From Thiotrichaceae bacterium (GTDB taxonomy: Bacteria > Pseudomonadota > Gammaproteobacteria > Thiotrichales > Thiotrichaceae), in the NCBI GenBank assembly GCA_026988095.1, contig JALSLX010000116.1, positions 1 through 42,189 on the forward strand: a DNA stretch of 42,189 bases, written 5' to 3'. Both the position numbers and the translations under genes were made by a program. Below the pieces are notes generated by a model. That model searched no databases. It had not been told where the DNA came from and saw only the letters and a list, made by a program, of their open reading frames with translations. Position 1 is the first letter of the stretch, and each line of letters starts with the position of its first letter. Of this stretch, positions 7,371 through 38,043 are shown one piece after another.

Positions 7371-7419
7371 TTAAGGAAATCCTGATCAAGTCTAATCGGC
7401 TTAATCAGGCTTTCCTTAA
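7371..7419. repeat. palindromic repeat family P1, copy 1
   Basis: TTAAGGAAATCCTGATCAAGTC-taatc-GGCTTAATCAGGCTTTCCTTAA; same arm motif as 37880-38043 and 38711-38780. Confidence 0.7.
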
Positions 7420-9344: not shown

Positions 9345-9372
9345 TTGACTAACCCTGTGTGTGAGGTATAAT
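9345..9372 (+). promoter_or_regulatory. strong sigma-70 promoter for the cold-shock gene
   Basis: TTGACT-N16-TATAAT about 170 nt upstream of the csp start codon. Confidence 0.75.
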
Positions 9373-9541
9373 CTCGCACAGCTTGAAAGTACGTTTTTTA
9401 TATTTATGCAACACCATCTCGAAGTTCCATTTGTTTTGATCCTCGTCCTGTTTTCATATTTCATAGCAACACCACTTCAGCACAACCGTTTTAGAAATGT
9501 TTTCTAAAACACTTTTAATTTTGAATATTAGGAAGAATATT

Positions 9542-9748
9542 ATGTCTACAACTACTGGAACAGTAAAATGGTTTAATGAGTCTAAAGGCTTTGGTTTTAT
9601 CGAGCAAGAAGACGGACCAGACGTTTTTGCACACTTCAGCGCAATCTCAGGTGATGGTTTCAAAACTTTGAACGAAGGCCAAAAGGTTGAATTCACTGTT
9701 ACTGACGGCCAGAAAGGTCCTCAAGCAGAGAACATCGTAGCTCTTTAA
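9542..9748 (+). CDS. cold-shock protein (CspA family)
   Basis: [35 protein letters not shown] with RNP motifs; internal ATG at 9542 preferred over 9497 (upstream AGGAAG SD). Confidence 0.96.
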
Positions 9749-9771
9749 TTTTTAATTAAAGAATTACTTTA

Positions 9772-9801
9772 AAAAGCGAGGTTTTATACCTCGCTTTTTT
9801 G
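9772..9801 (+). terminator. intrinsic terminator of csp
   Basis: AAAAAGCGAGGT-ttat-ACCTCGCTTTTTT. Confidence 0.9.
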
Positions 9802-9905
9802 TGTCTGTAATAAACTGCTCACCTTGAAAAAATGGTAATTTACCCCTATAAATAACTATAATGATGAGAACTTAATATTAGTTAGCAACGAAGGAGTAAT
9901 AGTAA

Positions 9906-37600: not shown

Positions 37601-37751
37601 AGTTTAAGAACAGTACCAGTCATCTTTACTTAGCAAGGTTTTATCGTTCGCTAACTTGTAAGCTGGTAATAAATATGTTTTTATAGAGATACCAGTTAGG
37701 CAGAATTTATTTTGTTTAACTTAGTAATCCGCAGCAAGGGGATTTAAAACT

Positions 37752-37867
37752 TATGGACACTTAAGCCCGGTGTTCTTTATTTCTCTTGCGGAGCACAGGT
37801 TTGGTGTCCCCAATCCAGACCTGTTATTTTAACCCCGTCAGTGGTCTCCATTGAACGGGGTTTTTTT
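37752..37867 (+). ncRNA. candidate Spot 42-like (spf) small RNA
   Basis: Intergenic, convergent with engB as spf is in E. coli; GGTGTTCTTTATTTC, GGTTTGG, TATTTTA-CCCC-GTCAGT blocks resemble recalled Spot 42 segments; hairpin 37796-37823 and Rho-independent terminator 37833-37867. 5' end estimated. Confidence 0.55.
37833..37867 (+). terminator. Rho-independent terminator of the candidate sRNA
   Basis: CCCCGTCAgtggtctccatTGAACGGGG followed by TTTTTTT. Confidence 0.88.
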
Positions 37868-37879
37868 ATGGTTGTTTGT

Positions 37880-38043
37880 TTAAGGAGAGACTGATTAAGT
37901 CGAATAGAATTCAGCGCAGAAAAATCTGTCAATATTTTCCACGAAGATCGGCGTAATAGTCACTCTATTACGCCGATCTTCGTGGAAAATAGCGGCTGAT
38001 TTGACAAGCTGAAAATAATTGGACTTGATCAGTTTCTCCTTAA
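37880..38043. repeat. palindromic repeat family P1, copy 2 (164 bp, with nested perfect palindrome)
   Basis: Outer arms TTAAGGAGAGACTGATTAAGTC / GACTTGATCAGTTTCTCCTTAA; inner perfect arms 37933-37959 and 37965-37991 (27 bp, loop tcact). Confidence 0.85.

Follow-up and report, generated by a model that had tools for sequence, protein, structure and literature searches.

A palindromic IS5-type MITE beside engB in a Thiotrichaceae bacterium, with an inner stem most likely corrected by template switching

The DNA analysed here, referred to as the window, is a 42,189-nucleotide stretch from a Thiotrichaceae bacterium. In this window a candidate sRNA (37741-37868, plus strand) and the engB gene converge, and a palindromic element with its two target duplications (37880-38043, 164 bp) lies in the gap between them. 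The element starts 16 bp past the T-run of the sRNA terminator, and 17 bp separate its far end from the engB stop codon, which bore out the position given to it in the initial annotation. The sRNA occurred once per genome in 59 of the 63 genomes examined from the family, with a terminator that was conserved in the genus, and on the evidence of this conservation the candidate is a real sRNA. It matched no Rfam family above threshold and gave no match to Spot 42. Other sRNAs that adjoin engB are Spot 42, in Escherichia coli and the Vibrionaceae, and ErsA, between polA and engB in Pseudomonas (PMC3295665, PMC8575079); the window sRNA, convergent to engB, occupies the same position and may be a positional counterpart of Spot 42 and ErsA. 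Elsewhere in the window, positions 9372-9802 (plus strand) matched the cspA thermoregulator (RF01766) just over the gathering score.

The palindrome was real, with coordinates and arms as first described: 20 of the 22 positions in the outer 22-mers could pair, whereas the inner 27-bp repeat was perfect. Its extent of 164 bp was correct for the palindrome; the outermost TTAA on each side (37880..37883 and 38040..38043), however, is duplicated target, in keeping with a family that is flanked by direct 4-bp repeats, and the element proper is 156 bp (37884..38039, plus strand), with exactly these ends common to the dispersed copies. The left terminal inverted repeat, GGAGAGACTGATTAAGTC (37884..37901, plus strand, 18 bp), follows the pattern GGARNNNCTGATYAAGTC, and the same ends are carried by an intact IS5-family insertion sequence (IS). 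The right repeat, GGAGAAACTGATCAAGTC when read on the minus strand (38022..38039, 18 bp), agrees at all 18 bases with the corresponding right repeat of an IS5 relic, L276, from the same genome. The inner hairpin (37933-37991) consists of a perfect 27-bp stem, with its left arm at 37933..37959 and its right arm at 37965..37991, and a 5-nt loop, TCACT (37960..37964), all given on the plus strand. No ORF of note was present in the element, which is non-coding and palindromic along its whole length, and each copy of the family can fold back throughout. The RNA fold of the element had an energy of -98.3 kcal/mol compared to a mean of -32.8 kcal/mol for shuffled sequences (z = -17.5; reached by 0 of 200 shuffles), which is folding far beyond chance. 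The contrast in base composition that had been drawn between the inner and outer arms was weak, with a G+C content of 41% (11/27) and 36% (8/22), respectively.

The 2.26-Mb assembly of the window's own genome contained 23 full-length copies of the element, the window copy included, together with many partial or short forms; the GGARNNNCTGATYAAGTC pattern gave 61 matches in this genome compared to none for the reversed control. The element was matched in 14 of the 57 genomes searched (own genome included), several of which had at least 25 hits, and the carriers were Cocleimonas and other Thiotrichaceae genomes. Copies were dispersed over many loci and species, with differing flanks. Most of the 105 paired elements examined lay between two TTAA sequences; this tetramer is self-complementary, so that in elements flanked by it, the window copy among them, a duplicated target and an inverted repeat look alike. 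At the non-TTAA sites the flanking 4-mers were direct-only in 15 elements and inverted-only in one (sign test, p = 2.6e-4). Because non-palindromic sites showed this preponderance of direct repeats, the duplication is regarded as genuine, and the element as a 156-bp unit that duplicates 4 bp of its target. The family therefore shows the features of a MITE: a short non-coding sequence with terminal inverted repeats, a 4-bp target-site duplication and many dispersed copies.

Several variants of the element were observed. A second family member in the window (7371..7419) is a TTAA-flanked mini-element of 41 bp (7375-7415) that comprises little beyond the two inverted repeats with a 5-bp spacer. 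L198 and L204-L212 (in G001 and the own-genome contig C82) shared the ends of the element but belonged to larger size classes, of 261 and 279 bp; in the 261-bp copy L198 the apical stem was perfect over 16 bp and the loop was related. Head-to-tail copies that shared a single TTAA were seen at L020, L041, L217, L232, L237, L254 and L255, which suggests that a later copy had inserted into target sequence already duplicated by an older one. Outside the Thiotrichaceae, many single pattern hits looked like chance matches in coding sequence, and several paired hits look like relatives. At L115, L127, L134, L138 and L125, in records assigned to the Chromatiales, Planctomycetota, Rhodocyclaceae and Selenomonadales, unrelated interiors were enclosed by a pair of ends of this type (GGAAACNCTGATTAAGTC, with TTAA or CTAG duplications), which is therefore widespread.

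A search for autonomous elements with the transposase profile PF05598 identified an intact 1173-bp IS5-family IS in a related genome (L265), which had the same inverted repeats and TTAA on both sides. Its reading frame encodes a 332-aa transposase that matched NF033581 (IS5 family, transpos_IS5_4) over the full profile (E = 2e-97). A shorter relative of this IS was present in another genome (L280), and L276, the relic in the window's own genome, retained the right end but had decayed at its left end and in the N-terminal part of its transposase. Autonomous partners with the same repeats and duplication were thus found in intact, shortened and relic form. No intact transposase of the IS5 type was found in the own-genome assembly, which is fragmented and approximately 92% complete. 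IS-sized inverted-repeat pairs from a contig scan enclosed ordinary genes and no transposases, and were dropped. The interior of the MITE showed no similarity to the ISs found beyond the 18-bp repeats; because it matches none of them, the MITE did not arise from these ISs by internal deletion alone. IS5 of E. coli duplicates the target YTAR (PMC10359306), and TTAA falls within this motif. Judged from these shared ends and duplications, the family is probably moved by IS5-type transposases; following established IS5 behaviour, the transposase would bind the inverted repeats, insert the element at TTAA-like sites and duplicate 4 bp.

The suggestion of an active MITE was upheld in part. That the element is a MITE was supported by its dispersed copies with different flanks, the 4-bp duplications, the matching autonomous IS and the state of the engB locus in related genomes: engB was found in 10 congeners, the sRNA adjoined it in 10/10 and the element was present there in 0/10. 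Activity in the window's own genome was not supported, since the copies there were 79-90% identical to the window copy and the sole transposase of this type found there was a relic. In some congeners the space between the sRNA and engB was taken up by sequence of a different, unrelated kind. The expected form of the site before insertion is GGTTGTTTGT-TTAA-AGGTAGCGGG; the flanks of the congeners were too diverged from the window for a base-exact empty-site junction to be read at these element-free loci.

The inner hairpin was present within the 156-bp element in eight genomes, and was imperfect in copies other than that of the window. Fifty sequences had a length of exactly 156 bp, of which 49 aligned without gaps and carried the hairpin; the other, L240, was shifted inside and was left out of the alignment. 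Of the alignment cells, 90.4% paired, and there were 91 two-sided changes compared to a mean of 29 in shuffles and 24 or fewer in slid versions. The variable bases of the terminal repeats also matched within elements more often than between them (398 versus 304 expected).

In the own-genome consensus, the 27-bp stem contained six non-Watson-Crick pairs. The window copy departed from this consensus at six stem positions, five in the left arm (37939, 37947-37949 and 37951) and one in the right arm (37970), with one change in each of the non-Watson-Crick pairs; all six changes restored pairing and the rest of the stem was unchanged. The probability that six random substitutions would give such a pattern is approximately 3e-9, a figure that ignores shared descent. 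Four of the six pairs were repaired in a copy from another species (L231), the nearest relatives of which were unrepaired, and four were also repaired in an own-genome copy (L002). In a further copy, L008, the same segment was paired, but with other letters. Template switching in quasipalindromes turns imperfect inverted repeats into perfect ones (PMC7202029, PMC8794818). The pattern of changes suggests that the perfect stem of the window copy most likely arose by quasipalindrome correction through template switching, with the changes perhaps made in several steps; while replicating the element, the DNA polymerase would have changed template from one arm to the other, so that one arm became a copy of its partner. 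Part of this signal could also stem from selection for the fold. The absence of mismatches, which had been taken as a sign of youth, is better explained by such homogenisation of the arms.

It is unlikely that the perfect inner stem was instead ancestral, kept by the window copy while all other copies decayed. The presence of ATC at stem positions 64-66 in both L002 and L231, as in the window copy, would fit common retention; however, the mismatched segment was common to copies of every species sampled, distant ones too (L033, L034, L047 and L254), and the differently lettered pairing of L008 also argues against a single ancestral stem. Furthermore, when relatedness was judged from the outer part of the element, the copies closest to L231, L002 and the window copy mostly had the mismatch.

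Selection might also have acted together with correction, such that the fold-back was kept paired across copies and species since the structure was needed, either for transposition or as a transcript-end hairpin, and template switching supplied the repairs. This combination is considered decidedly unlikely; if it were true, the copies would record template-switch mutation in an uncultured lineage.

That selection keeps the fold-back for a function, such as that of a transcription terminator or of a hairpin at mRNA ends in the sRNA-engB gap, or that of a fixed structured RNA, appears very improbable. The extreme folding energy and the covariation of pairs within the family are in its favour, as is the location between two convergent genes, and many of the own-genome copies had the 3' end of a gene nearby. 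Most of these copies, however, were situated between tandem rather than convergent genes, which gives no sign of a special role where genes converge. The sRNA is already served by a terminator that lies 5' of the element. No Rfam family matched the element above its gathering score; the miRNA hits fell well short of the gathering scores and were rejected as matches to hairpins in general. A fixed structured RNA or binding site had been offered in the initial annotation as the alternative to a mobile element, to be recognised as a conserved single-copy locus; the absence of the element beside engB in all 10 congeners argues against it. Among the own-genome copies examined, none lay within an ORF of at least 100 aa. 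At engB the likeliest status of the element is that of nearly neutral selfish DNA, which would at most place a putative hairpin between the two converging transcripts, those of the sRNA and engB.

The earlier proposal that a younger palindromic element had inserted into an older one is scarcely credible: the single observation in its favour is that the 77-bp forms L058 and L060 cleanly lack the inner part, so that their GCAGA junction might represent an empty site and a duplication of 5 bp, but the hairpin belongs to the 156-bp element in eight genomes, no copy of it apart from the element was found in the own genome, and other short forms (e.g. L056 and L057) lack it through several different junctions at short repeats or microhomology. 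Such differing microhomology junctions point to deletion across palindromes as the origin of the short forms.

Taken as a whole, the locus is very probably explained best by a palindromic MITE of IS5 type, with mobilisation by an IS5-type transposase and correction of the stem by template switching as the inferred parts. The element is of an ordinary kind and its unusual point is the seemingly corrected inner stem. The analysis identifies a MITE family in Cocleimonas and other Thiotrichaceae, together with the IS5-type element that probably drives it; the literature searched contained no description of this family in Cocleimonas or the Thiotrichaceae and none that paired Cocleimonas with insertion sequences, and a search for the letters of the inverted repeat returned unrelated papers only. 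The many copies provide a natural data set on how often template switching corrects imperfect palindromes. For annotation, the mobile hairpin can be told apart from the conserved sRNA that adjoins it.

Quasipalindrome correction is known from E. coli and from RNA genes, whereas here it was read from dispersed copies of a MITE. ERIC, Correia/NEMIS and RUP elements are likewise short intergenic palindromes with many copies and size variants, but differ from the window family in their sequences and hosts. Correia/NEMIS elements duplicate TA; an assignment to these or to IS630-type elements, which share the TA duplication, was rejected on the 4-bp duplication of the window family, and a hairpin element of the IS200/IS605 or REP/RAYT type was likewise rejected on the target duplications and the IS5 partner. 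With the IS5-family ISs, the MITE shares the 18-bp repeats and the 4-bp TTAA duplication of L265, and its right end is that of L276; it differs from them in having no coding capacity, in being similar in the inverted repeats only and in being palindromic throughout. The window family resembles the MITEs of Candidatus Thiomargarita nelsonii, which are also abundant, short and palindromic and reside in a large sulphur bacterium (PMC4853749). The Thiomargarita MITEs, however, have 10-bp direct and 19-bp inverted repeats, or TATAG ends (PMC4853749), whereas the window family has a 4-bp duplication and IS5-type ends.
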